Notes under the pieces: generated by a model | The model's input: the letters and a program-made list of their open reading frames with translations, nothing else | Databases searched by the model: none | What the model was told of the DNA's origin: nothing | In this document: piece by piece, positions 2,091 to 46,100 of the stretch | Layout: every line of letters begins with the position of its first letter | Numbering within the stretch: the first letter of the stretch is position 1 | NCBI GenBank assembly: GCA_964019135.1 | Contig: OZ025261.1 | Location: 34,028,820-34,092,819 of the forward strand | DNA length: 64,000 nt | Reading direction: 5' to 3' | Source: Arenicola marina | Lineage: Eukaryota; Annelida; Polychaeta; Arenicolidae | Position numbers and translations under genes: made by a program

Positions 2091-2310
2091 GTGACGTCCT
2101 GCAACGTGATATATCTTAGCGTGACGTGTCATAGCGTGACGTGTCATAGCGTGACGTGTCATAGCGTGACGTGTCATATCGTGACGTGTCATAGCGTGAC
2201 GTGTCATAGCGTGACGTGTCATAGCGTGACGTGTCATAGCGTGATATATCCTAGCTTGACGTGTGATAACGTGACGTGCCATAACTTGACGTGTCATAAC
2301 GTGACGTAAC
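2091..2310. repeat. 15-bp minisatellite (GTGACGTGTCATAGC)
   Basis: About fourteen copies of a 15-bp unit GTGACGTGTCATAGC. Each copy contains a TGACGTG core resembling half a CRE. Because 15 is a multiple of three the array gives open frames of pentapeptide repeats on both strands, which I regard as artefacts. Confidence 0.85.
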
Positions 2311-3942
2311 GTGCGACACGTTTCATAGGACACGTCTCATAGCGACACGTCTCATAGCGACGTCTCAGCGACACGTCTCAGCGACACGTCTCAGCGACAT
2401 GTCTCATAGCGACACGTCTCATAGCGACACGTCTCATCGGACACGTCTCGTAGCAACACTTCTCATAGCGACGTCTCATAGCGACACGTCTCATAGCGCC
2501 ACCTCTCATAGCGACACGTCCCACAGCGACGTCTCAGCGACACGTCTCATAGGACACGTCTCATAGGACACGTCTCATAGCAACACGTCTCATAGCGACG
2601 TCTCATAGCGACACGTCTCATAGCGACACGTCTCATAGTGACACGTCTCATAATGACACGTCTCATAGCGACACGTCTCATAGCAACACGTCTCCTAGCG
2701 ACGTCTCTGCGACACGTCTCATAGCGACACATCCCAGCGACACGTCTCAGCGACACGTCTCAGCGAAACGTCTCACAGCGACACGTCTTATAGCGACACG
2801 TCTCATAGCGACACGTCTCACAGCGACACGTTTCATAGCGAGACGTCTCAGCAACACGTCTCATAGCGACACGTCTCATAGCGACACGTCTCACAGCGGC
2901 GCGTCTCATAGCGACACGTCTCATAGCGACACATCTCATAGCGACACGTCTCAGCGACACGCCTCATAGCGACACGTCTCAGCGACACGTCTCATAGCGA
3001 CACGTCTGACAGCGACACGTCTCATAGCGACACGTCTCATAGCGACACGTCTCACAGTGACACGTCTCATAGCGACACACGTCATAGGACACGTCTCATA
3101 GCGACACGTCTCATAGCGACGTCTCAGCGACACGTCTCAGCGACACGTCTCAGCGACATGTCTCATAGCGACACGTCTCATAGCGACACGTCTCATCGGA
3201 CACGTCTCGTAGCAACACTTCTCATAGCGACGTCTCATAGCGACACGTCTCATAGCGCCACCTCTCATAGCGACACGTCCCACAGCGACGTCTCAGCGAC
3301 ACGTCTCATAGGACACGTCTCATAGGACACGTCTCATAGCAACACGTCTCATAGCGACGTCTCATAGCGACACGTCTCATAGCGACACGTCTCATAGTGA
3401 CACGTCTCATAATGACACGTCTCATAGCGACACATCTCATAGCGACACGTCTCAGCGACACGTCTCAACGACACGTCTCATAGCGACACGTCTCATAGCA
3501 ACACGTCTCCTAGCGACGTCTCTGCGACACGTCTCATAGCGACACATCCCAGCGACACGTCTCAGCGACACGTCTCAGCGAAACGTCTCACAGCGACACG
3601 TCTTATAGCGACACGTCTCATAGCGACACGTCTCACAGCGACACGTTTCATAGCGAGACGTCTCAGCAACACGTCTCATAGCGACACGTCTCATAGCGAC
3701 ACGTCTCACAGCGGCGCGTCTCATAGCGACACGTCTCATAGCGACACATCTCATAGCGACACGTCTCAGCGACACGCCTCATAGCGACACGTCTCAGCGA
3801 CACGTCTCATAGCGACACGTCTGACAGCGACACGTCTCATAGCGACACGTCTCATAGCGACACGTCTCACAGTGACACGTCTCATAGCGACACACGTCAT
3901 AGGACACGTCTCATAGCGACACGTCTCATAGCGACACGTCTA
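2311..3942. repeat. 15-bp minisatellite (GACACGTCTCATAGC) with a large internal duplication
   Basis: Roughly 110 units of a 15-bp repeat GACACGTCTCATAGC, with shorter variants lacking CATAG. A higher-order duplication is visible. The variant string around 2364-3118 recurs from about 3119, with the rare variants CATCGGACACG (2435 and 3194) and CAGCGGCGCG (2894 and 3709) in the same order. The offset changes from 759 to 815 because the second block carries about 56 extra bases near 3424-3480. Open frames across the array are repeat by-products. Confidence 0.85.
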
Positions 3943-4135
3943 ATGGCGTGACGATCCGTGATGTTCCATGGCCCGTCATATAGCTGTTGTATTATTGCTT
4001 TAAAATGTGGACGCACAGATTCACTGAGGCGAGAAGCATGTTCTTTTCTATCAGTATATTTTTATTCGACTGTCACTAATCTGGAGCTCACTTAAGACGA
4101 ACTACCTTAAGTACGAATATGGCGTATTGCAACAA

Positions 4136-4690
4136 TAGCGACACGTCTCACAGCGACACGTCTCACAGCGACACGTCTCATAGCGACAAGTCTCATAGCG
4201 ACATTCTCATAGCGCCACGTCTCATAGCGACACGTGTCATAGGACACGTCTCATAGCGACACGTCTCATAGCGACACGTCTCATGGCGACACGTGCGACA
4301 CGTCTCATAGCGACACGTCTCATGGCGACATGTGCGACACGTCTCATAGAGACACGTCTCATGGCGACACGTGCGATGCGTCTCATAGCGACACGTCGCA
4401 CAGCGACGCGTCTTATAGCGACACGTCTCATAGCGACACGTCTCATAGCGACACGTCTCATAGCGACACGTCTCATGGCGACACGTGCGACACGTCTCAT
4501 AGCGACACGTCTCATAACGACACGTCTCATGGCGACATGTGCGACACGTCTCATAGTGACACGTCTCATGACGACACGTGCGACACGTCTCAGAGCGACC
4601 CGTCTCATGGCGACGCGTGCGACACGTCTCTTAGCGACACGTCTCATGGCGAAATGTGCGACACGTCTCATAGCGACACGTCTCACGGCA
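4136..4690. repeat. Second block of the 15-bp GACACGTCTCATAGC minisatellite
   Basis: The same unit family resumes after a 193-bp unique spacer (3943-4135). Many units here are 15+9 variants, with CATGGCGACACGTGC inserted. The 20-mer TGACGATCCGTGATGTTCCA lies immediately after both this block (4691-4710) and the previous one (3949-3968). The two blocks therefore share their right-hand edge and are probably copies of one array plus flank. Confidence 0.85.
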
Positions 4691-5057: not shown

Positions 5058-6691
5058 AGCCACCCCTCGGGTTCCAAGGCCCACAGTTAGATGTACACCG
5101 AGTTTTGTGGAGATTTTTTGCGTCTTGGGTGGTCAAATAAATCCCTTACCATAGGAGTAGCGTCAAATAACATAAAACGTATTCTAAAATAAATGTACTT
5201 AGTTTTATGATTATTGAAGTGTCTAAGTAGCAGGTAGTGATCTACATAGGTATGCTGTGGGAGCCAGTGTCGATATAACACGCGTGTGGTCCCTTACAGT
5301 TCAAAACGGACCATTCATCTCGGAGAAAAACACCCACAACGTTCTTGATAGCTGTACACATGGAGTCAGGGTTGTGGACTGTTCTGTAAATAGATACACC
5401 ATCTAAGTTTTAATATACGCTCCAGCAAGATGAATATCGAAATACTTCAGTCGCAAGGCTTCGGAGTCAACAGTAAAACTACCGACAGATTATAAGGCGG
5501 TTTACCTCAAGAGACATGAATAAGTGATTGAACAAGGACATAACACGGCTTGTTGAGAATCGCGGCCTAATGTTAAAGCTACTTATACAACAGTTTCGCG
5601 CTGAATAATCAATTTCAGATTGTTTCGCATCAATGACTTGTATGCTTTGTTCGATCTATTTCAGTTATTTATCTTGAATTTAAGTGGTTAAATTAAAGCT
5701 TCACCAATGCCAATAGTTTGATGACGTAGTACACCAGAACGACAACTTTGCTGGCACTAGCTACCTGTACCCGTACCAGAAAATGTCTTCAAAAGCATAT
5801 CCTTGTTAGGTAATGTACACTATAGTATTGTCTTCATACAATAAGGACCTCAGTACATGATTTCCGTCGGAAAGATTGAACAAGTTTTACATGGGAACAT
5901 TTTGGTATGAGCAGCTTTAGTGGGTCCCTGTGGGCGTATGTGGCGTTGCATCCTGTGGGCTTCACAGAATAATTGACAATGGCAATATATGGGCCTATAT
6001 ATTTCGCCGTGACATTCTAGCCAATACAATTCGTGGAACACCGAACAAGAATGTAACCGCGAGTTATGTGAGTTGACAAAGGGCCGTTCACTCCATGTGG
6101 GGAGGAGGGGGCGGGGGGGGGGGGGAGGGGGGTATGGCAAGTCCAAATCGAATATAATAGAGCATGGGGGTGGGGGCGGAGGCGTGAACCTGTGCGAAGG
6201 TAGATGGGGCAAGGAGTGAAGGCATACGTGATGTCTATGTGAAGCCGCGCATGCGCAACATGCGATCAAACCTTGTGAACGATACAAGACAAAATGTCGG
6301 CATCGAAGTCGTACGCTAAAGGGGAAGCGAGAAACGATATATGCCTGGCAAGAGATTATAATGAAGATCTGCAATCAAATAATTTCAGAGATTAGCATTA
6401 ATATGTGTTAGAACAGAATTTGTTTAAATCCAAAACCAATTATTTTTTACCCGAAACATTGGACGCCCATTTGCTTGAATTCTCACTACTCTCCCCTAAT
6501 TTACCGAATCAGCGAACCAATGTCCTGAAGTAATTTTGACATATTGCATGCGGTAAGTCTGTATTGCATCGGTGTAAATTAATGGTGCATTTTCCAATAA
6601 CCCTTCTTCGGTAAAGAAAACTGAATCCTTGGTATATATAAACCAGACTAAGCACTGACTTATGCAACCGAATTCTCGCTTGCCCTTTCAG
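5058..6691. other. Non-coding stretch, possibly intronic
   Basis: No exon with family similarity is visible. The only marked feature is a G-run at 6105-6135. A 174-codon open frame on the minus strand (5850-6374) crosses the low-complexity G/C run and has no recognisable domain, so it is not called. If the exon at 1657 belongs to the membrane-protein gene, this stretch is intron. Confidence 0.5.
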
Positions 6692-8646
6692 TCGCCAGGA
6701 GTTACATGACCGCCAGCCCGCTGGCCGTCCGTGGCGCGCCCTGGTGATCGTTCTCACATTTTTCGTGCTGTTGACGGAAATAATTCTGGCTATCTTGGGC
6801 AGTTTTCCTAACATTGATACAGGTAAGTCTGTCCAGAAACTCGACAAGTAATATGCCGCCACCATTTTAAAATTAGTTACGAGTCCTCAAGATGATGGGA
6901 CATATTTATGAAGATCCTGCTATTATAGTTTGTTCTCCTCTCAGGTGACGTCATGAATTGCTACTGAATGTAATGTCTGTCACGTCGGCTCATAAAGTCG
7001 GTTTCGCTGAAATGCCACCACAGTTTATCGTTGTAATAAGTTATCTGGTGAATGAGTGCATCCATACTCATGAAGTTCGTACTATCGAAAGTGTATATTC
7101 AAAAACATTTCATATGAACCCGACAAAAACTGATCTACGTTTGGATTCCCTGAAGTATGCTTAATTGCCATAACGCTTGAGTGAGAGGCAAGACCATAAG
7201 AGGGTTCTTTTTCTGTGAGCTTCCTACTAAAAGTGATTGCTTGGATGTCTCACGGACTATGACGTATGCCATATGCCCTACCCGCTTTGAAAGCTTGGAC
7301 CGTTGTATTATTGCGACTATATTACACAATTAAAACAAAAACCCAAGATGATGACTAACGCACCTATTACAATTCAGTCTACTAGTAAGATAGAGGCACA
7401 CCAAGGAACATAACATAATTAAATCAACAACGGTTACCGTAACGATCATGGGAGCATTTTTTATTTCTACTTTTTTCCGCCATATGCATTTTCAGAGCTG
7501 TTCAACTCTGCCGTGGAAGAGGTTCCTTCCTCCGATGCCATCCAGCCTCACCCAGCCACCTTCTCCATCTGGTTCTTCATCTTCCTCTACCAGCTGATAT
7601 GGATGTGCTACGGGCTGTACCTTATAGGGGCCTCGGGGCCCGGTGGGTACGGCAACCTCTATTACAGTCCGCCCTACATCCCCACATCGCTCTACGTAGT
7701 CTTCATCCTGCAGAGCGTCACTATCGTCGGGTGGCTCTTCGCCTTCGACCGACGGCGCCCGGACATCGCCTTGGCGCTTCTCATGGCGACGTCGGTGCTT
7801 CTCTACATCTGTATCGTGATATCGGTCCGCGCCCTCTGGGTCCACGGACTCACCCTCTACCAGGCCGGCATGGGGGTGCACGTCAGCCTGGTGCGGGGGC
7901 TCATCCACAACGGCCTGGCCCTCTACGCCACGTGGGTAACCATAGCGACGCTTCTCAATCTGGGAACGGTTCTGCAGCAGTACGCGGATTTCGAGGATGA
8001 CGTCACGGGCACCGTTATCTTGGCGATCTTGGGGACGGAGGCTCTGGCGTGGGTCATTCTGGATTGGTGCATCCTGGAGCCCTATCTCCGGTACATCTTC
8101 ACGCCATATTTCGTCCTGCTGACCGCCCTAATCGGGATTATCGCTAACCGCTTCGAGCCGTGGACCGTGAACGCCATCTTGTTGGTGGCCCTCTTGGTGT
8201 TCGTCGGTCTGGCTACACTCATCAAACTCATCCTCTCCGGATCAAGAATCCAGACGATGACGGATCCGATCCTGGCGCGGGCCCCAGCTCCGAGCCAGCG
8301 CGACCCCAAAGCGACCGTTCCTAGGCAACCAGTCATGGTTGCTCAGGCGCCAGCTATGACGTACATGCAGCCGATGCCTCTTTCCCGTCTGCCGGAACAG
8401 CCTGTCAAGACGAGTTCCCCGGCTACAGGCGTCGTGTCTGCGTGGAGCGACCCCACCAATGCCGTCACGCGACCACAGATCGCCGGCCCAGTGGGCGCCA
8501 GCCACCGAGTTCCCGGATATGACGTCATGTACCAAAGCTCGCCGATGCTGGCGCCACACGCTTACAACGACGGCAACATGCACTCTAGCGCGCCCGCCTT
8601 GATCGCTTACCCCGTGCCTTACGAAGCGTACATGGCTACATATTGA
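6692..8646 (+). CDS. Multi-pass membrane protein of an uncharacterised animal family (last two exons)
   Basis: Two exons: 6692-6822 and 7496-8646 (stop at 8644-8646). They join in phase (ACA G|AG CTG) and encode 426 residues after an incomplete first codon. The first exon holds one membrane segment (LVIVLTFFVLLTEIILAIL). The second holds about seven more, beginning with FSIWFFIFLYQLIWMCYGL and including HNGLALYATWVTIATLLNL and TEALAWVILDWCILEPYLR. The last 120 or so residues are a hydrophilic, proline- and methionine-rich tail. The FSIW, HNG.G/A.YATW.TIATLLNL and LAW..D blocks match a metazoan family of TspO-like multi-pass proteins annotated only as uncharacterised; the likeness is from memory. 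No function can be given. The initiator exon is not located; the exon at 1657 is phase-compatible. Codon use in the large exon is GC-rich compared with the AT-rich flanks. Confidence 0.85.
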
Positions 8647-17235: not shown

Positions 17236-20200
17236 CTGCCCTGTATAGAAGACTTCTCAATTTTAAAGCCAATCAGTCGAGGGGCATTTGGGTAAGCTAG
17301 TGTATGACCAGTATGACCCTGCATGTCTGTTACTTCACTACATCAATTTTTATCACTGTTAAAGTTAATAATTTTGTATATTAAGTGTGGGATGTTTTTC
17401 AATTGCTGATACAAAGATACCAACTGATAATTACTAGCAGTTATTGCCATAGCGCTGATTAAGATCACTGTTAATAGGTTAAGCCTGTAGGCAACAATAT
17501 ACTTTTCAATAACTTGCTTATTGATGACTTTTGCAGGAAGGTTTATCTTGGTCACAAGAAAAACATACCAGGCAAGAAATATGCCATAAAAGTTATGAAG
17601 AAAGCAGATATGGTCAATAAGAATATGGTCAGCCAAGGTAAGCTATGCTATTCTTCAACAAAAAGATTCTGTTTATTTAAATTTCAGCATCCAAGATATT
17701 TCTTGAATTTTGTGATGTGTAAATTTTTTATATTTAGTAAAATAAATATAAAAACCATCATTTTAGAGACATAATACTCAGCAAAATGTTTCCTGATACT
17801 TGGTTGATTCCCTTTGCCATTTATTTTGCTGCTGTAATATTATTGTGTTGGACGCTGGCTTTGTTTCCTTGCAGTGATTGCCGAGCGGGATGCCCTGGCT
17901 TTGTCCAAGAGTCGCTATATCGTCCGCCTCTACTATTCACTGCAATCCAAGCAAAACATCTATCTGGTATGTACCTGTCAAACATCTACCTGGTATGTAC
18001 CTCTTAAGCATCTATCTGGTATGTACCTTTCAAACATCTATCTGGTATGTACCTCTCAAACATCTATCTGGTATGTACCTGTCAAACGTCTACCTGGTAT
18101 GTACCTCTCAAACATCTATCTGGTATGTACCTCTCAAACATATACCTGGTATGTACCTCTGAGACATCTACCTGGTTTGTACCTCTCAGACATCTATCTG
18201 GTATGTACCTCTCAAACATCTACCTGGTATGTACCTCTTAAACATCTATCTGGTATGTACCTCTCAGACATCTATCTGGTATGTACCTCTTAAACATCTA
18301 TCTGGTATGTACCTCTCAAACATCTACCTGGTATGTACCTGTCAAACATCTATCTGGTATGTACCTCTCAATCATCTATCTGGTATGTACCTCTTAAACA
18401 TCTATCTGGTATGTACCTCTCAAACTTCTATCTGGTATGTACCTCTCAAACATCTACCTGGTATGTACCTCTCAAACATCTACCTGGTGTGTACCTCTCA
18501 AACATCTACCTGGTATGTACCTCTCAAACATCTACCTGGTATGTACCTCTCAAACATCTATCTGGTATGTACCTCTCAAACATCTACCTGGTATGTACCT
18601 GTCAAACATCTATCTGGTATGTGCCTCTCAAACATCTACCTGGTATGTACCTGTCAAACATCTATCTGGTATGTACCTCTCAAACATCTACCTGGTATGT
18701 ACCTCTCAAACATCTACCTGGTATGTACCTCTCAAACATCTATCTGGTATGTACCTGTCAAACATCTATCTGGTATGTACCTCTTAAACATCTATTTGGT
18801 ATGTACCTCTCAAACATCTACCTGGTATGTACCTCTCAAACATCTATCTGGTATGTACCTCTCAAACATCTACCTGGTATGTACCTCTCAAACATCTATC
18901 TGGTATGTACCTGTCAAACATCTACCTGGTGTGTACCTCTCAAACATCTATCTGGTATGTACCTCTCAAACATCTATCTGGTATGTACCTCTTAAACATC
19001 TATTTGGTATGTACCTCTCAAACATCTACCTGGTATGTACCTCTCAAACATCTATCTGGTATGTACCTCTCAAACATCTACCTGGTATGTACCTCTCAAA
19101 CATCTATCTGGCATGTACCTCTCAAACATCTATCTGGTATGTACGTCTCTGATTGGTTGACACATCTTGGTGCGATGTCTGATTGGTTGACACATCTTGG
19201 TGCGATGTCTGATAGGTTGAGATGTGTTGATGCGATGTCTGATTGGTTGAGATGTGTTGGTGCGATGTCTGATTGGTTGAGATGTGTTGCACTCCTTCAG
19301 GTGATGGAGTATCTCATTGGTGGAGACATCAAGTCTTTATTGGCGATCTATGGATACTTTGATGAGCCAATGGCCGCCATGTACACAGCTGAAGTGACCT
19401 TGGCCTTGGAATACCTGCACAGTCATGGCATTATCCACAGGTGGGGTTCCTTGCATGTTATTTATAAATAAACAATAATCCTATGTCATAAGTTAGAAAC
19501 TCCTCCAAAATGGTATATTGCACATTGTTAACATTGTTATTATATTTCTCTTCTTGATGACATTTTGCATATCATGGGAGTAAGATCAGGGGGAAATATG
19601 ATTCGACACAAGCTTTCATTGTTTCATTCAACTGTTTCATTCACTTTGCATTGTCATTTTTTACCATTATTTTGTTTCACTCTCTGCAGGGACCTGAAGC
19701 CAGACAACATGTTATTATCCAATGAGGGTCACATCAAACTAACAGACTTCGGGCTGTCACAGATTGCTCTCAATCGACGTACGTCTGAAGCTTGCTCGCA
19801 CTGTGCATATCTCACCGTCTAGAGTCTTAATTAAGTACCTGGGTGTAAGCTACTACAGTGTTATAATTTGGGCTTCAGACAACGTTCCTAATGATGGAAA
19901 CTACTCGTGTGTCTAACCAGAGTTTTGTATATATTATGGACTTTCGCTCGAGGCCTGGGGTTCATTTCGCTTAATGCTCGTTAACTTTTGGTTGTAAAAT
20001 TTAAAACTGGTATTGCGGGGCAGTGTAGGAAAGTGTTAAAATTATCATAAAACAATTGATTTGGTTAATATTGGCCAGAAATATATTAGCGTGTGGAAGA
20101 TATGATTATGAGCTCGCGATGATCCACAGGTCACAATTGTTACATATTATTATGTCGTTTAGACATTAGTGATTATAATTTGATAGTATGTGAGTGAGAT

Positions 20201-23200: not shown

Positions 23201-26200
23201 GTGTCTCCGCACCCCGCTGGCCCCCCTGGGCGGGCGGTGGGAAGGGGTGCTGCCGCCCCGGGACCGCATGCCGCTCTCCACCTTCAAGAAGGTCACGAGT
23301 TTTATGAGTCTGCCGAGCTCCGTGTCGAGCGACGAACACGACCAGTCGAGTATGTTATACACCCCACTCGGCCACAGGGCGAGTCCCTTCGGTTACAGGG
23401 AATGCATGGTAGGTTGGCATACAATAAGTATCATTTGCAGATGCAGCATTCCTGACATTGATATGGAAATAAGTAGCAATCTTTAATTGCCGCAGTCCTT
23501 GCGTTGACATGGCAACAAGTACCATTCATATATTCTGAATTCAGCGTTGACATGGCAACAAGCATGGCAATATATATTATGTTTGCATTACCTCTCAGCC
23601 TTCTCGTGACAACACTATCCATTTTGTTAGCGCGCCCCAAGCGTTCCCATGGTAACTAACTAGCTGTGCTCTGGCCTCCATTGTGTCACTCCAGACGCCG
23701 GCGGGACAGATGCGTCTGGCGCACCAGACCCCCTACCGGACCCCCAAGAGTGTCCGGCGCGGAGCCCCTCCGCCAGAGAAGCCGAACCGGATCCTGGGGA
23801 CGCCAGACTACCTCGCTCCAGAACTGCTTCTCATGCAGGAACATAGTCAGTGTCTATATATATATAGCCAATATACATACAATGTTTCAGTTAATAGTTT
23901 GGCGCGTAATAATAATATATAATATATTTAATAATATATAATAATATAATATATATAATAATATATAATAATATATATAATAATATATAATAATATATAA
24001 TAATATATAATAATATATTATATATAATAATATATAATAATATAATATATATAATAATATATAATAATATAATATATATAATAATAATATATAAATAATG
24101 TTAAACAATGCCCCCCTCTGCCCCAGGTCCGGCCGTCGACTGGTGGGCGTTGGGCGTCTGTCTCTTCGAGTTCCTCACCGGAGTCCCTCCGTTCAATGAC
24201 GAGACGCCAGAAGCCATCTTCCAGAATATTCTCAACCGAGGTAGGTGCAACATTGGGGTGGGGTAGGCTACCCGCTATTATAGGTATGTAATGAAATATT
24301 GTTCAGATGTGTTATTATGTGTCTCTATGACGACATCTGTATAGGGTGTGTGTGGGGGGGGGGGGGGGGCGGGGCAGGGTAAACTAATTGTTGTGCCAGT
24401 CAAGACAGACAAACTATGTACCGAGGGTGACACAAGTGACGACATGGCGTCCGTTACAGATATCCCGTGGCCTGAGGACGAGGATGCCCTGTCCGACGAA
24501 GGGAGGCAAACCATCGAGGCTCTCCTGGACCTCAACCCCCTGGCCAGACCCGCCGCCAAAGGTAAGACACCCCCACCCCCTGGCCAGACCCGCCGCTAAA
24601 GGTAGGACACCCCCACCCCCTGGCCAGACCCGCCGCTAAAGGTAAGACACCCCCCCCCCCTGGCCAGACCCACCGCTAAGGGTAGGACACCCCCACCCCC
24701 TGGCCAGACCCGCAGCCAAAGGTAACACACCCCCAGCCCCTGGCCAGACCCACCGCCAAAGGTAACACACCCCCAGCCTCTGACCAGACCCACCGCCAAA
24801 GGTAACACACCCCCACCCCCTGGCTGGACCCGCCGCTGAGGGTAAGACACCCCCACCCCCTGGCCAGACCAGCCGCCAAAGGTAAGACACCCCCCCCCCC
24901 TGGCCAGACCCACCGCTAAGGGTAGGACACCCCCACCCCCTGGCCAGACCCGCAGCCAAAGGTAACACACCCCCAGCCCCTGGCCAGACCCACCGCCAAA
25001 GGTAACACACCCCCACCCCCTGGCTGGACCCGCCGCTGAGGGTAAGACACCCCCACCCCTTGGCCAGACCAGCCGCCAAAGGTAAGACACTCCCACCCCC
25101 TGGCCAGACCAGCCGCCAAAGGTAAGACACTCCCACCCCCTGGCCAGACCCGCCGCCAAAGGTAAGGTCCCCCCCCCACCCCACTCCCTTGCCAGTCCCA
25201 TCAAGCACTAGATCTGTTCATCAATAGATAGATAGTTTTACTGTTTTCTATGCCATCAGGCCCACAAAACATGTACGTTGTCCCTTACAACATGGTAACA
25301 CTGGTTCAAGTAAACACGTTTTAATAAGTTTAGTGGGTGAAGTTAAATGCTGGGTTTGACGTATTCAGTTCTCTCATGTAAAGCTTTCCAGGTATAGATT
25401 GATAAATTCTGGAGGATCAATTGCTCTTCCGATGACATTAATTCCATAAACTGTTCATGCGTTGGCTGGGTCCAATACATTTAAATTATATATACATGTA
25501 CATGCACTCCGCTTAATTTACTATTTGTCAGCAGAAAAGTTGCGATTATCCGAAGTTGGCGATTGGTATGATTGGCAGTCTGTTGACACGCACTGTAGTT
25601 ATTCATAATATTGTTTATTTCCTGCCCAGAGATGCGCTCGCAGCCGCTGCTGGCAGACCTGGACTGGGAGAACATTCACGACATGACCCCCGCCTTCGTC
25701 CCCAACCCTGATGACGACACCGATACCAGCTACTTCGACGGTAGGTGGCGCCACCGTACGGTCGATTTCCCGGTATCCAGAACTTTCATCAATATTCGCG
25801 AATCAATGATAGTAACTTCATACGCAGAGGGTGATACGATGAAAGCCATCGCTACAACAAGAGATTTTTTTATATATTGCTTTGATTTCCTATTCGGCCT
25901 GAAAATGTTGCTTGGAAATATCGCCGTCAAACGCCAAGAGCTATTGCGGAAGCGTCGTTTCTTATTACGTGTATCTCTGCCAAGAGGTTTGTTGTCCCGG
26001 TCTGGCACGTGTATCTCTGCCAAGAAGTTTGTTGTCCCGGTCTGGCACATGTATCTCTGCCAAGAGGTTTGTTGTCCCGGTCTGGCACGTGTATCTCTGC
26101 CAAGAGATTTGTTGTCTCGGTCTGGCACATGTATCTCTGCCAAGAGGTTTGTTGTCACGGTCTGGCACGTGTATCTCTGCCAAGAAGTTTGTTGTCACGG

Positions 26201-29186
26201 TCTGGCACGTGTATCTCTGCCAAGAGGTTTGTTGTCTCGGTCTGGCACGTGTATCTCTGCCAAGAGGTTTGTTGTCCCGGTCTGGTACATGTATCTCTGC
26301 CAAGAGGTTTGTTGTCACGGTCTGGCACATGTATCTGTGCCAAGAGGTTTGTTGTCACGGTCTGGCACATGTATCCCTGCCAAGAGGTTTGTTGTCACGG
26401 TCTGGCACGTGTATCTCTGCCAAGAGGTTTGTTGCCCCGGTCTGGCACATGTATCTCTGCCAAGAGGTTTGTTGTCCCGGTCTGGCACGTGTATCTCTGC
26501 CAAGAGGCTTGTTGTCCCGGTCTGGCACGTGTATCTTTGCCAAGTTGTTTGTTGTCCCGGTCTGGCACATGTATCTGTGCCAGGAGGTTTGTTGTCCCGG
26601 TCTGGCACATGTATCTCTGCCAAGAGGTTTGTTGTCCCGGTCTGGCACGTGTATCTCTGCCAAGAGGTTTGTTGTCACGGTCTGGCACATGTATCTCTAC
26701 CAAGAGGTTTGTTGTCACGGTCTGGCACGTGTATCTCTGCCAAGAGGTTTGTTGTCCCGGTCTGGCACATGTATCTCTGCCAAGAGATTTGTTGTCCCGG
26801 TCTGGCACATGTATCTGTGCCAAGAGGTTTGTTGTCCCGGTCTGGCACGTGTATCTCTGCCAAGAGGTTTGTTGTCACGGTCTATCACGTGTATCTCTGC
26901 CAAGAGGTTTGTTGTCCCAGTCTGGCACATGTATCTCTGCCAAGAGGTTTGTTGTCACGGTCTGGCACATGTATCCCTGCCAAGAGGTTTGTTGTCCCGG
27001 TCTGGCACATGTATCTCTGCCAAGAGCTTTGTTGTCCCGGTCTGGCACATGTATCTGTGCCAAGAGGTTTGTTGTCCCGGTCTGGCACGTGTATCTCTGC
27101 CAAGAGGTTTGTTGTCACGGTCTGGCACGTGTATCTCTGCCAAGAGGTTTGTTGTCCCGGTCTGGCACATGTATCTCTGCCAAGAGGTTTGTTGTCCCGG
27201 TCTGGCACGTGTATCTCTGCCAAGAGGTTTGTTGTCCCGGTCTGGCACGTGTATCTTTGCCAAGAAGTTTGTTGTCCCGGTCTGGCACATGTATCTCTAC
27301 CAAGAGGTTTGTTGTCCCGGTCTGGCACATGTATCTGTGCCAGGAGGTTTGTTGTCCCGGTCTGGCACATGTATCTCTGCCAAGAGGTTTGTTGTCCCGG
27401 TCTGGCACGTGTATCTCTGCCAAGAGGTTTGTTGTCCCGGTCTGGCACATGTATCTCTGCCAAGAGGTTTGTTGTCACGGTCTGGCACGTGTATCTCTGC
27501 CAAGAGGTTTGTTGTCCCGGTCTGGCACATGTATCTCTGCCAAGAGATTTGTTGTCCCGGTCTGGCACATGTATCTCTGCCAAGAGGTTTTTTGTCCCGG
27601 TCTGGCACATGTATCCCTACCAAGAGGTTTGTTCTCCCGGTCTGGCACATGTATCTCTACCAAGAGGTTTGTTGTCCCGGTCTGGCACATGTATCTCTAC
27701 CAAAAGGTTTGTTGTCCCGGTCAGGCAGGTGTATCTCTGCCAAGAGGTTTGTTGTCCCGGTCTGGCACATGTATCTGTGCCACGAGGTTTGTTGTCCCCG
27801 TCGGGCACATGCATCTCTGCCAAGAGGTTTGTTGTCCCGGTCTGGCACATGTATCTCTGCCAAGAGGTTTTTTGTCCCGGTCTGGCACATGTATCTCTAC
27901 CAAGAGGTTTGTTGTCCCGGTCTGGCACATGTATCTCTACCAAAAGGTTTGTTGTCCCGGTCTGGCAGGTGTATCTCTGCCAAGAGGTTTGTTGTACCGG
28001 TCTGGCACATGTATCTCTACCAAGAGGTTTGTTGTCCCGGTCTGGCACGTGTATTTCTACCAAGAGGTTTGTTGTCCCGGTCTGGCACGTGTATCTCTAC
28101 CAAGAGGTTTGTTGTCTCGGTCTGGCACGTGTATCTCTACCAAGAGGTTTGTTGTCCCAGTCTGGCACATGTATCTGTGCCAAGAGGTTTGTTGTCACGG
28201 TCTAGCACGTGTATCTCTGCCAAGAGGTTTGATGTCCCGGTCTGGCACATGTATCTGTGCCAAGAGGTTTGTTGTCCCGGTCTGGCACATGTATCTGTGC
28301 CAAGAGGTTTGTTGTCCCGGTCTGGCACATGTATCTGTGCCAAGAGGTTTGTTGTCCCGGTCTGGCACGTGTATCTCCACCAAGAGGTTTGTTGTCCCGG
28401 TCTGGCACATGTATCTCTACCAAGAGGTTTGTTGTCCCGGTCCGGCACGTGTATCTCTACCAAGAGGTTTGTTGTCCCGGTCTGGCACATATATCTGTGC
28501 CAAGAGGTTTGTTGTCCCGGTCTGGCACATGTATCTCTACCAAGGGGTGTGTTGTCCCAGTCTGGCACATGTATCTCTACCAAGGGGTGTGTTGTCCTAG
28601 TCTGGCAGATGTATCTCTACCAAGGGGTGTGTTGTCCCGGTCCGTTACGACTATTATCATGGTTGTGTCAGCCGGTTCTTTTATATAAGCTAAATTGAAC
28701 CGCGCTTGTAGAATAGCTCACGTATTATTCATAGCATTAACTACCATGGTCGATTGGGTGGATGCAAACCTGAAAGACATCCGCCCTCGCTTTATATTTC
28801 AACTCGGGGTGGTGCTTTCTGTGGCGTTGACACCGCAGTTTCCATTGCCCAATGTAGGTGTCTACCCCCATGCCACCCCTCCCCCACCTCACGGAATACC
28901 CTAAGATCTTGGGTCTTGTAACGTAACCCTGCTAGATGGCAATCCCTCTTAGGGAAAAATCGTTAAACAAATAATGTTTAAACAAATTGAAACAATGTAT
29001 ATATATATATACCGAGTAGGGGAAAGCGTGCATAATATTCATAGTTCAAATTAATATTGTGAAGCATATTATTTATGAACTTGTGAACCGATCGAACATT
29101 GTCCATATACAAACTTCAATGACCTGTTTCCTCTTGCAGCTCGGAACAACATGCAACATTTAAAGGTGTCTGCGATAGATGTCTGA
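17236..29186 (+). CDS. MASTL: Serine/threonine kinase Greatwall (MASTL)
   Basis: Twelve coding exons: 17236-17291, 17537-17637, 17875-17966, 19301-19440, 19690-19778, 20408-20517, 20988-23408, 23695-23845, 24127-24240, 24460-24561, 25630-25740, 29140-29186. All phases match; 1177 residues plus a missing short N-terminus. Greatwall is a mitotic AGC kinase that phosphorylates ENSA/ARPP19 and so inhibits PP2A-B55. Visible are the glycine loop ISRGAFGKVYLG, lysine in YAIKVMKK, the HRDLKPDN loop, DFG at about 149-151 and GTPDYLAPE at about 1038-1046. The roughly 890-residue insert between DFG and APE is the family hallmark; human MASTL totals 879 residues. Conserved TP sites remain: VNTP, RTPGQ and [13 protein letters not shown]. 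The C-tail keeps DTDTSYFD and ends HLKVSAIDV, matching the autophosphorylation-site region and lacking a hydrophobic motif. Exon 20988-23408 is GC-rich, with a His-rich run. Introns after 17966, 24561 and 25740 are mostly minisatellite. Confidence 0.97.
17954..19148. repeat. 26-bp minisatellite built from the MASTL exon end and splice donor
   Basis: About 45 tandem copies of AACATCTATCTG|GTATGTACCTCTCA. The first half of the unit is the last 12 coding bases of the exon ending at 17966, and the second half is the authentic donor GTATGT with the first intron bases. The array begins at the exon border and fills nearly the whole intron. Nearly every copy keeps CTG|GTATGT; common variants are CTACCTG for CTATCTG and GTCAAAC for CTCAAAC. 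The array is open in long stretches of all three forward frames. Confidence 0.95.
19147..19295. repeat. 30-bp repeat filling the 3' end of the same MASTL intron
   Basis: About five copies of a 30-bp unit, GATGTCTGATTGGTTGACAC plus ATCTTGGTGC, with a GAGATGTG variant in the last three. It directly follows the 26-bp array and stops a few bases before the acceptor CTCCTTCAG at 19300. The intron therefore consists of two tandem arrays and almost nothing else. Confidence 0.85.
23905..24098. repeat. AT microsatellite (ATAATATATAATA)n in a MASTL intron
   Basis: About 190 bases of pure A/T made of ATAAT and ATAT blocks, between the exon ending at 23845 and the exon starting at 24127. Confidence 0.9.
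24537..25176. repeat. 40-bp minisatellite built from a second MASTL exon end and splice donor
   Basis: About sixteen copies, including the exon itself, of a 40-bp unit. Twenty-five bases come from the end of exon 24460-24561 (CCCCTGGCCAGACC and CGCCGCCAAAG), followed by 15 intron bases GTAAGACACCCCCAC. Each copy keeps a donor of the form AAAG|GTAAGA, AAGG|GTAGGA or close to it. Some copies read CGCTAAAG in place of CGCCAAAG. This change puts TAA into the exon's frame from the first intronic repeat on. Confidence 0.95.
25968..28650. repeat. 40-bp minisatellite in the last MASTL intron
   Basis: About 67 copies of a 40-bp unit, GTATCTCTGCCAAGAGGTTT plus GTTGTCCCGGTCTGGCACAT. The unit has no stop codon in any forward phase, so all three forward frames are open for more than 2.5 kb (about 860-930 codons). 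Many copies contain CACGTG and the others mostly CACATG, a C-to-T change at a CpG read on the other strand. The array starts about 225 bases after the donor at 25741. Confidence 0.95.
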
Positions 29187-40100: not shown

Positions 40101-43100
40101 AATCCATCACCGGAGTGAATCCATCACCGGGGTGAATCCATCACCGGAGTGAATCCATCACCGGAGTGAATCCATCACCGAAGTGAATCCATCACCGGGG
40201 TGAATCCATCACCGGGGTGAATCCATCACCGGAGTGAATCCATCACCGGAGTGAATCCATCACCGAAGTGAATCCATCACCGGGGTGAATCCATCACCGG
40301 GGTGAATCCATCACCGGGGTGAATCCATCACCGGGGTGAATCCATCAGCGGGGTGAATCCATCACCGGGGTGAATCCATCACCGGAGTGAATCCATCACC
40401 GGGGTGAATCCATCACCGGAGTGAATCCATCACCGGGGTGAATCCATCACCGGGGTGAATCCATCAGCGGGGTGAATCCATCACCGGGGTGAATCCATCA
40501 CCGGGGTGAATCCATCACCGGGGTGAATCCATCACCGGGGTGAATCCATCACCGGAGTGAATCCATCACCGGAGTGAATCCATCACCGGGGTGAATCCAT
40601 CACCGGGGTGAATCCATCACCGGGGTGAATCCATCACCGGGGTGAATCCATCACCGGGGTGAATCCATCACCGGGGTGAATCCATCACCGGAGTGAATCC
40701 ATCACCGGAGTGAATCCATCAGCGGGGTGAATCCATCACCGGGGTGAATCCATCACCGGGGTGAATCCATCACCGGGGTGAATCCATCACCGGGGTGAAT
40801 CCATCAGCGGGGTGAATCCATCAGCGGGGTGAATCCATCCCCGTGACTTACGCGATCAACTTACACACCTCGATATACTTATGATCGCCATGACCTGGAC
40901 ATCGTAAGTTATCGTGAGCAGGAATCCTGTTGACATGCCCCCCTAGGTCACCCGTTCCGGACGAGTGGGCCATGGCTGAGGACATCGTGGCCCCGTGCCT
41001 GCCGGCGCGGTCCTGTTCAAACAGCCATGAGTCCCACACCGGTGTCACTGCCGAGACCCAGTCGCGTTGGCAGCGACACGGCCAAGTCTTCAGACAGCAA
41101 GATGTGATGAGCCTTGCGGAACATCTCACCACACGAATACTGCAGGACCAGCCAGCCAATATAGCCGTCTATTGCGCCGATCTCTTAGATAAAAAGCTGG
41201 CCAAGAGGAATCGTGCAGGTGAGAACTGTTTTAACGTGTGTATTACTCAGGCGGAGCAGTTAACGCGATTGTCAACTTGAAAGGTAACGAGCTAAATACA
41301 TCCTGGTGGTTTACATCGATGAAGCAATGTTGCCACCTGTACATGGCAGGCAATAACGCGTCTCAAACCAATCAGTCATTTGGTATGGTACAGGTAAGAC
41401 AATCAAACCAATTTGGTGCTGTACATGTAAAACATTGTACAGGCGAGACAATCAACGTCATTTGGTGTTATACAGGTAAGGCAATCAACGTTCTTTGGTG
41501 CTGTACAGGTAAGACAATCAAACCAATTTGGTATTGTACAGGTAAAACAATCAACGACATTAGGGGTTGTACAGGTAAGGCAATCAACGTCCTTTGGTGT
41601 TGTACAGGTGAGACAATCAACGTCCTTTGGTGTTGTACAGGTGAGACAATCAACGTCCTTTGGTGTTGTACAGGTGAGACAATCAACGTCCTTTGGTGTT
41701 GTACCAGTAAGACAATCAACGCCTTTGGTGTTGTACAGGTAAGGCAATCAACGTCATTTGGTGTTGTACAGGTAAGACAATCAACTGTCATGGGTGTTGT
41801 ACAGGTGAGACAATCACCGTCCTTTGGTGTTGTACAGGTAAGGCAATCAACGTCATTTGGTGTTGTACAGGTGAGACAATCAACGTCCTTTGGTGTTGTA
41901 CAGGTGAGACAATCAACGCCTTTGGTGTTGTACAGGTAAGACAATCAACGTCCTTTGGTGTTGTACAGGTGAGACAATCAACGTCCTTTGGTGTTGTACA
42001 GGTAAGACAATCAACTGTCATGGGTGTTGTACAGGTAAGACAATCAACGTCCTTTGGTGTTGTACAGGTGAGACAATCAACGTCCTTTGGTGTTGTACAG
42101 GTAAGACAATCAACTGTCATGGGTGTTGTACAGGTGAGACAATCAACGTCCTTTGGTGTTGTACAGGTAAGGCAATCAACGTCATTTGGTGTTGTACAGC
42201 TATGGCAATCAACGTCCTTTGGTGTTGTACAGGTGAGACAATCAACGTCCTTTTGTGTTGTACATCTGAGCCAATCAACGTCATTTGGTGTTGCACAGGT
42301 AAGACAATCAACGTCCTTTGGTGTTGTACCAGTAAGACAATCAACGTCCTTTGGTGTTGTACAGGTGAGACAATCAACGTCCTTTGGTGTTGTACAGGTG
42401 AGACAGTCAACGTCCTTTGGTGTTGTACAGGTGAGCCAATCACCGTCCTTTGGTGTTGCACAGGTAAGCCAATCAACGTCCTTTGATGTTGTTCAAGTAA
42501 GACAATCAACGTCCTTTGGTGTTGTACAGGTGAGACAATCAACGTCCTTTGGTGTTGTACAGGTGAAACAATCAACATCCTTTGGTGTTGTACATCTGAG
42601 CCCATCAACGTCCTTTGGTGTTGTACAGGTGAGACAATCAACGTTCTTTGGTGTTGTACAGGTGAGACAATCAACGTCATTTGGTGGTGTACAGGTAAGA
42701 CAATCAACGCCTTTGGTGTTGTACAAGTAAGACAATCAACGTCCTTTGGTGTTGTACAGGTGAGACAATCAACGTCCTTTGGTGTTGTACTGGTGAGACA
42801 ATCAACGTCCGTTGGTGTTGTTGTACAGGTGAGACAATCAACGTCCTTTTGTGTTGTACATCTGAGCCAATCAACGTCCTTTGGTGTTGCACAGGTAAGA
42901 CAATCAACGTCCTTTGGTGTTGTACAGGTGAGACAATCAACGTCCTTTGGTGTTGTACAGGTGAGCAAATCAACGTCCTTTTGTGTTGTACATCTGAGCC
43001 AATCAACGTCCTTTGGTGTTGCACAGGTAAGACAATCAACGTCCTTTGGTGTTGTACCAGTAAGACAATCAACGTCCTTTGGTGTTGTTGTACAGGTGAG

Positions 43101-46100
43101 ACAATCAACGTCCTTTGGTGTTGTACAGGTGAGACAGTCAACGTCCTTTGGTGTTGTTGTACAGGTGAGACAATCAACGTCCTTTGGTGTTGTACAGGTG
43201 AGACAATCAACGTCCTTTGGTGTTGTACATGTAAGACAATCAACGTCCTTTGGTGTTGTACAGGTGAGACAATCAACGTCCGTTGGTGTTGTACAGGTGA
43301 GACAATCAACGTCCTTTGCTGTTGTACAGGTTAGCCAATCAGCGTTCATGGGTATTGTACAGGTGAAGCAATTAGGGTTCTTTAAACCTGTAGCATGGGA
43401 TTGTTCCAAATATATCTAGTACCCTCATAAAATATACTTATCAAAAGCTCATACTTAACCTCGGAAGACCCACTTAATTACTTAATACCGTGATGTGCTG
43501 TATCTAAAGGATTAGCCTTTCATCGGGCTCTCGTTAATCCTCGATGCACACACGAAATAAGTGCTTGCGGTAAGCTGTGTGATATGACGAAATGAGGTAA
43601 CCTGGCGGCTACTGGTGTCGGCTGTACAACATGGTTGTGAGTCATGCGTACACGCACTAAGACTAGGATCGGCAGTGCATGGAAGATGGGTTAACTCACG
43701 GCGTGGAGACCCAGGAGCTTGCGATCAGTTGGATATCTATTTGCTCACGCCTGCGTATATGTTTACCCTGTGGGAACGCGAAAGGTAAACATGCGTGAGA
43801 TGATATACATTCATATAGGGTTATATCTGCCTTCAAATGTATTCGAGTATTTTCGACGAATGAGGCTAACATAGTTCAAAGTGTAGTTTGAAGAACCTTC
43901 TAGACAAAATAGGATGTTGCCAAGTCGTTTGCACGAGAATTGCTAGTGGCGATTACCAGTTCGTCATCTGCATAATTATTTTATTCCTTTATGTTCCGTA
44001 TATTATCGACTTGTTTCAGATACTATCAAGAAAATGGCGGAAGGTAGTGTGCAAGACGCCAAGTGGCGACATCGTCACATAAACGAGATGTCGTGCTCAA
44101 ACACGATATCGTATGTGGCTGAAAATGGCGGGAAAAGCCAAGCGCAGACGGCATTTGGCGGCCGCCGCGCGGCTGTCACTAAGCAAGGTAACAACGTCGA
44201 TGCCAAGCCACCACGCTGTCCGCAGTCATCGCCAGCTAGAGACGGCCAAGCGTGGGCCAGGGACGCGGGGAGAGGCAACCCCGACGTCGCCAAGTTGATA
44301 ATGGTGGGCACGTTAAGTGGACTTCATGGCGTCGCGCCAGTGGACCTTGACGGCGACAGCGCGCTGTCGGACTCCATGGCGACAAGCCTACGCTTTCCAG
44401 GCCGTCGCGTCGACGTACATTCAACAGCGTCGCATCTCCATGGAAACCCTTCGTGTCGGGCGACGCTGCTAGGTCACACCGGCGCCGTGACGCAGTTGTG
44501 TCTACTATCCCATTACGTGATGACGTCATCACTGGACCACACAATCTGTATCTGGGATGCGTGCAGTGCGCGGCTGGCCAAGAGGCTGGAGTGTGGTCAG
44601 GCCGTGCTCTCCATGTGCTGCGCTAGATACGAGAGCAAGGTATACCTCTTGTTAGCCGGTTGCCACTTCGGCAAGGTTCAAGCCTGGGCATTGAAGTTGT
44701 CGGACAACAGCATAGAAGTAGCGCTGTCAAACGTCTTCGAGTTCCACACTCCGAACCCGGTAGGAGTCATGACCATGTCTCCGGACCGCCTCTACGTGGC
44801 GACGGGCTGTTGCTACGCCAGCTACAAGATATCTGACAGGGCGCTGACGGACAGCGTCTGCGGGAACGTGAAAGCCTGGCGCCTGGAGGACATCGTGACA
44901 ACAGCCAAGGACACCTCGCACGACGACTTGCACGTACCCTGCATGGCCATCAAGACCGTGCGTCAGTTGCTGTCTAAAGGCCTCCCGCCGATGCTGCGTC
45001 GCGAAAGCTCCTATTTCCGCCTGCTTGTGGATAATGATTTAGGCAACGAGAGGGCGTACGGCGTGCGGAGCCTGGCCTACACGGCAGACAGTACCAAGCT
45101 GGTGGTGGCCCTGGGGCGGCCAGACGATCACGACGACGCCGTCCACCGCGGGAAGCTCCTTGTCTGCTGCTCCGAGTCGCTGGATACGCTCTACACGCTG
45201 GCACACAGCAGCCCTCACATCTGCTCCATCGTCACGCAGGTGATGGTCTGCCGGGACACTAGCCGCCCCAAGAACGCCGAATTCGTCTTGGTGTCTACTC
45301 CGGGCGGTTTGGAAGCCCTCCGCTTGAAGGGAACAGGTAATGTGGAGGGTGGAGTGATGGGCGGTGTGTGGTTCAATGCTGGTCGGCGTCTGTGAGATGT
45401 TGCTTAAAGCAATTTCGACAGTTATTTTCAGCAAGGTCATCTAAAGCTAAAGACTTGTTTGGAAAGAATAGTGCAAGCATGATCTATTCTTGTCGCTAAA
45501 CTCCATTGTCTCGAGCATGGCACGATATAGCCTTACAGGCTGAAAGTGCCGTTAAACCGCATTAAAGCGCACCGCAATTGGGTGTAAAATTATAACGTCA
45601 CGCACGCGCCGGGGGAAGCAGACGACAGATCTACTTTGGAAGCCAAAACACATGCATAAAAAAACCGACCGGGTGTACACGGACGGTGTGTTCGGATGGT
45701 ACAGTTCATATAGCGAAACGGTCCTGACATTTTGATGACAGAACCTGTAAACGTTACGTATTCACTATCGATTACACTGATGTTGTGTTAATAAATGACT
45801 AATTTCATAACTTCAGCGTCGGCCACGAAGAAGCTGCGGCTGGAGAAAGCGTGGCAGAGTTCCGGGAAAGATTCCAAGTCGAGGCTGGCTACCTATTCGG
45901 CCTCTCACGTCATTTTCGCAACGTATCCATGCGACCGATCACGTGGCGGTAGGGTACAAAAGTCAACAGCCAATAGGAGTCCAGAGATTATTCAGCCCGT
46001 CACGTTGGAGTATTACGACATTCAGAGCGGCGCCCTCATAGCGTCTCACGTGACAGATCACGTGGCCCAGGTGACTGACGTCCGGGTCTCTGCCGACACT

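Follow-up and report, generated by a model that had tools for sequence, protein, structure and literature searches.

Tandem arrays carrying an exon end and its splice donor in an annelid MASTL orthologue

The MASTL gene and its arrays

We examined a window of 64 kb (the whole stretch of DNA analysed, taken from a contig of 41.5 Mb; the assembly measures 867 Mb) that holds a gene for the Greatwall kinase, MASTL, in which the end of an exon and the adjoining splice donor are repeated dozens of times along the following intron. All the features of the gene described here lie on the forward strand. Five exons of its 5' part (17236-17291, 17537-17637, 17875-17966, 19301-19440 and 19690-19778) joined into an open frame, and the product aligned with Greatwall (5loh) at E 5.5e-76, compared with 1.2e-41 for the next family in the N-lobe, STK38. 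The third of these exons has canonical AG/GT edges and ends in the residues ...NIYL, while the fourth reads VMEYLIGGD..., and the alignment runs straight through the junction NIYL/VMEYL; the boundaries placed in the original prediction, 17966 for the exon end and 19301 for the start of the following exon, were therefore confirmed. Another five exons, from 23695 to 29186, gave a joined frame open to the stop codon, among them 24460-24561 (ending in ...ARPAAK) and 25630-25740. Their product matched Greatwall (8v5h, E 3.8e-62), the sole molecule at E up to 1e-40 from the C-lobe to the tail. Since Greatwall was the best match in both lobes, the gene is, as judged by protein similarity, a MASTL orthologue. 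Between the lobe exons we found an 844-codon open frame, with exon edges unsettled, that matched no Pfam family; a long non-conserved stretch between the lobes is presumably a trait of MASTL/Greatwall.

The last 13 nt of the exon at 17875-17966 and its donor form the first copy of a 26-bp repeat, which Tandem Repeats Finder (TRF) reported at 17954-19149 (46.0 copies, 92% match, 0% indels, score 2042). The unit, with consensus AAACATCTATCTG/GTATGTACCTCTC, joins 13 exonic nt (17954-17966) to 13 intronic nt, and 45 copies follow the exon's own. The copy table contained 19 distinct versions of the unit; the donor GT was intact in 45 of the 46 copies (copy 45 has GC), and the nine donor letters of the exon end, CTG/GTATGT, were exactly repeated in 40 of them. 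The proposal that an exon end and its donor had been amplified into the intron, giving dozens of near-identical donors, thus stands, as does the 26-bp unit, with 13 exonic nt in place of the 12 coding bases first counted. For an array of 46 copies with a coding end and a donor in its unit a chance match is excluded; how often arrays capture boundaries genome-wide is a separate question. The intron had also been described as made of about 45 donor copies, which is right for the array and incomplete for the intron: a 30-bp array (19148-19289, 4.7 copies) fills almost all of the remainder, and in the 1,334 nt of the intron only the 11 nt that precede the exon at 19301 lie outside this repeat and the 26-bp array (1,183 nt of which are intronic). 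Each 30-bp unit contains CTGAT, which we take to be a putative branch-point-like word.

A second donor-spanning array, absent from the original prediction, was found in the same gene at 24535-25166, with a 40-bp unit, 16 copies (TRF and copy table) and GT in 16 of 16. Here the unit combines 27 exonic nt (to the exon end at 24561) with 13 intronic nt, the exon's own end and donor being the first copy, and the exon at 25630-25740 lies 3' of the array. Twelve distinct copies were counted, and copies 4-6 reappear as copies 10-12; such a block duplication fits ordinary tandem-repeat turnover. The next intron (exon edges 25740 and 29140) contains another 40-bp array (TRF; 25970-28642, 66.8 copies) without contact to any placed exon, so the arrays here are not limited to exon ends.

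We spliced each of the 46 donors of the first array in silico to 19301 and followed the frame through the exon at 19690-19778. The frame remained open with the exon's own donor and with copies 4, 7, 10 and 13, and met a stop with the other 41 of the 45 alternatives; in-frame steps of 26 residues at every third copy, as proposed earlier, were thus recovered for those four copies, while the remaining alternatives met a premature stop. At both MASTL arrays the conserved kinase frame continues from the exon-proximal donor, which would also be the donor used in the cell.

Minisatellites cover 22% of the window. A 33-bp array (41435-43366, 58.4 copies) lies about 200 nt 3' of a likely exon end at 41219, near a WD40 gene; the motif AGGTRAR, a good donor, occurs in 45 of its 59 pieces on the strand of that gene. 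Units of 15 and 30 bp, of the GCGACACGTCTC type, make up a long array at 2117-4685 that is unrelated to any placed exon. A genome DNA search with the first 187 bp of the 26-bp array gave 19 matches, 10 of them within the array itself and 9 weak (70-74%). The weak matches fell in a 22-bp array (L012, on G000:C17) and were taken as unrelated, as the unit differs. At that locus a pair of large 22-bp arrays (2368-3610 and 5107-6899) share their unit and have similar repeats beside them, an apparent segmental duplication.

Boundary-spanning arrays at other genes

We estimated how common such arrays are in a sample of myosin-head and kinesin matches, found by protein similarity and chosen regardless of repeats. 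The 70 counted matches were the best 30 of 77 myosin and 40 of 133 kinesin matches in listed order, skipping contigs C390, C504 and C536 and the match C14:37963794, which runs through stops. Exon edges were judged by eye; some matches end within an exon, so that the true donors number fewer than 70, and several exons come from one gene. Arrays that start in the exon and carry the donor were detected at 7 of the 70 matches, with units of 62 bp (L052, 25 copies), 37 bp (L059), 100 bp (L072, 15 copies), 126 bp (L073), 71 bp (L080), 97 bp (L086) and 61 bp (L105). The last is a kinesin exon (G000:C14:21551617-21552135), and this same exon has the single acceptor-spanning array of the sample (1 of 70), with a 32-bp unit. 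The kinesin stretches reach just 180 bp beyond the match, so long units may be missed there and low copy numbers are partly due to this.

Three further donor-spanning arrays at neighbouring exons remained outside the count (L059, 32 bp; L065, 33 bp; L074, 46 bp). Judging by eye, we did not count as boundary-spanning L047 (which starts in the donor and has no exonic part), L048, L066, L069, L093, L096 and L097 on the donor side, nor L050, L077, L087 and L104 on the acceptor side. An apparent degenerate donor array at a neighbouring exon of L061 is in no count.

In the myosin flanks (90,000 bp) we counted 58 arrays, whose units average 67 bp and which cover 27% of the sequence; from this, the chance of a random point falling in the founding unit of an array was 4.3%, or about 3.0 of 70 donors expected against the 7 observed (P 0.03). 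This forecast is rough: the 58 arrays include boundary-spanning ones and some counted twice at overlapping loci, and exons of the same gene are not independent. The ratio of donor to acceptor arrays, 7 to 1, gave a Fisher P of 0.06 and a paired P of 0.03. The excess of donor-spanning arrays is mild, and most of them can follow from a minisatellite-rich genome combined with tolerance at donors.

The 30 kinase loci L015-L044 were kept out of the exon count, many being single-exon or ciliate-like; with TRF to within 80 nt of the match ends, they showed no array overlapping a match end by more than one base. One of them (L028, G000:C19, near 24447172) holds a kinase-domain gene whose final codons lie near the start of a 107-bp array (2238-3663, 13.6 copies), and the unit of this array includes the stop codon; the gene end, ...FERVF, is reminiscent of CDK9. 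This array involves no splice site. As in the donor cases, the original protein end is preserved, and this speaks for tolerance over a splicing function.

The host is an annelid, according to the gene order of the mitochondrial contig (15,942 bp); amphioxus, first considered as the source in view of the mirage reports, was rejected on this ground. All recognised genes, except for a single doubtful tRNA call, share one strand, and their order is cox1, cox2, atp8, cox3, nad6, cob, atp6, nad5, nad4L, nad4, two rRNAs, nad1, nad3 and nad2, with names assigned from frames and tRNA positions, the rRNAs from gaps, and a family match for cox1 only. This order agrees with the annelid derivations given in PMC2639372. 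Its non-coding stretch, between atp6 and trnH, has the place described there for Clitellata, Maldanidae and Terebellidae.

Kinase and kinesin matches in the small contigs C330, C390, C443, C465, C504, C536 and C652 were broken by TAG and/or TAA, never by TGA, and these contigs appear to be ciliate DNA within the assembly. Of the 122 kinase-domain matches, many were clustered at about 45.5-57.1 Mb of G000:C3; their frames are alike, without interruption and about 280-320 codons long, and suggest a local expansion. At G000:C5:5402476-5437356, five equally scoring kinase matches follow one another at a spacing of about 8.5 kb, apparently through a tandem gene duplication.

Tolerance of the arrays and competing explanations

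We consider the MASTL array to be probably a 'mirage' minisatellite (the term is explained below), near-neutral and tolerated since the exon's own donor survives. A short tandem duplication would have happened across the exon end and the donor, and the duplicated unit would then have expanded into the intron through slippage or unequal exchange. Splicing would take the first donor, with the later copies as intronic passengers and the array close to neutral. The genome gives rise to many minisatellites, and the donor-spanning ones would persist because the original junction stays in place. Acceptor arrays are perhaps rarer because the first AG past the branch point tends to be used and upstream copies may interfere.

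Several points weigh against near-neutrality with use of the first donor. Donor-spanning arrays were somewhat more frequent than the chance forecast, as given above. Losses of GT were too few if the cells of the copy tables are independent (P 1.2e-4), and in all 7 arrays with at least nine copies the nine donor columns were less variable than the others (P 0.016). Finally, experiments with duplicated donors often favour the intron-proximal copy, and faithful use of the first donor would be a surprise. Identical donors offer the spliceosome no sequence ground for choosing the first one; either the exon context or the order of synthesis decides, or the assumption of first-donor use is wrong. If identical donors are present and the first is always taken, it follows that position or exon context, not donor sequence, decides.

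The excess at donors could also mean that array birth is biased towards them by some mutational process, instead of being uniform and filtered by tolerance. The 7 donors against about 3.0 expected, next to a single acceptor, agree with this explanation, which we nevertheless regard as unlikely: the sample is small and clustered, the forecast is rough, the donor-acceptor contrast has a Fisher P of 0.06 and a paired P of 0.03, and a tolerance filter gives the same asymmetry.

The copied donors might alternatively be useful as decoys, which would gather U1 small nuclear ribonucleoprotein (snRNP) and shield a long intron from premature polyadenylation, or would leak stop-containing transcripts that tune the level of MASTL. 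Shielding of introns from premature polyadenylation is a function of U1. The original prediction had associated a neutral array with decayed donors, and these were not what we found: of the 149 copies in 12 arrays, the 12 real donors among them, 148 retained GT, although homogenisation of the copies could explain this. The conserved GT, the donor columns that were the least variable in all 7 larger arrays and the 41 of 45 alternatives that contain a stop are consistent with decoys. However, the signal faded with other ways of counting. By columns, GT was variable in 1 of 24 against 95 of 556 elsewhere (P 0.15), and the pooled donor columns, with misaligned stretches masked, in 15 of 108 against 81 of 472 others (P 0.47); the strong contrast in pooled cells (2.2% variation at donors, 5.8% at other positions) weakened after masking and column counting. 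Donor strength in the 58 flank arrays, scored with a matrix written from general knowledge, was likewise not higher on the sense strand (mean 2.5) than on the antisense (2.6; P 0.58), though strong sites numbered 10 sense and 4 antisense, in a set where boundary-spanning arrays are present and some arrays are counted twice. We regard a decoy function as quite improbable.

Even less probable, in our estimation, is the role first suggested for the array, namely to buffer splicing or to supply isoforms that vary in length by steps of 26 residues at the kinase hinge. In keeping with such a role, 40 of the 46 copies have intact and matching donors, and the frame would be kept by copies 4, 7, 10 and 13. 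On the other hand, 41 of the 45 alternative donors lead to a premature stop, an insert would land within the conserved hinge, and similar arrays occur at unrelated genes. Frame keeping across arrays is negative because the unit length is a multiple of three in just 2 of the 12 donor-spanning arrays, the other 10 shifting the frame. An assembly artefact in the array or its copy number is hardly credible: long tandem repeats are hard to assemble and the data come from one assembly, but the 19 distinct copies of the first array, the 12 of the second with its internal block structure, and the presence of arrays of this kind at several other loci, on different contigs, speak against it.

A more far-reaching possibility would be that donor-spanning arrays have spread to about one tenth of the donors of ordinary genes in a lineage outside the cephalochordates, that the first donor is reliably chosen from as many as 46 near-identical ones (a 5'-most rule) and that the decoys are kept intact by selection; we find it doubtful. 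Choice among identical donors has mostly been studied in built minigenes with few copies. The arrays described here offer natural genes with up to dozens of near-identical donors, at several loci and with the right answer set by the protein, and thus a natural test of donor choice. In genomes of this kind, gene prediction may put exon ends in the wrong place.

Comparison with known systems

Our literature search for donor-spanning arrays in annelids gave none among the matches listed, in a coverage that leaves out most subscription papers. The starting point proposed above, a duplication that includes splice signals, is shared with the model of intron gain by tandem duplication of splice signals, which is discussed in PMC3087553. 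The outcome differs from that model, as there is no new intron here and the MASTL frame needs the original junctions only.

Among annelids, the earthworm metallothionein genes are described, in the portions of PMC12783039 available, as having intronic minisatellites and duplications of the fourth exon that are absent from the transcript. They resemble the present case in the annelid host and in the minisatellite-sized intron repeats, with the extra exon copies there lying outside the transcript. Unlike the MASTL arrays, the earthworm repeats are not described in those portions as carrying an exon end and a donor.

The closest likeness is with the tandem repeats over exon-intron boundaries that were named mirages in amphioxus, and which the available portions of PMC3087553 and PMC3902484 report from Adh3, the globins BflGb6 and BflGb9, troponin C and PGBD5. 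In Adh3 their units measure 10-72 bp, in the globins about 150-160 bp; the BflGb6 mirage has 6 and 3 copies in two haplotypes, and the same portions describe length and somatic instability together with regular splicing that is apparently undisturbed (PMC3087553, PMC3902484). The MASTL arrays span an exon-intron boundary with units of 13+13 nt and 27+13 nt and so have the structure by which mirages are defined, and they likewise carry the splice signal in many copies (GT in 45 of 46 and 16 of 16). They differ from the amphioxus mirages in their annelid host, in the copy number, which reaches 46 here against 6 and 3 in BflGb6, and in belonging to a type of array that we encountered at 7 of 70 sampled matches. 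This points to an occurrence of mirage-type arrays beyond the cephalochordates.
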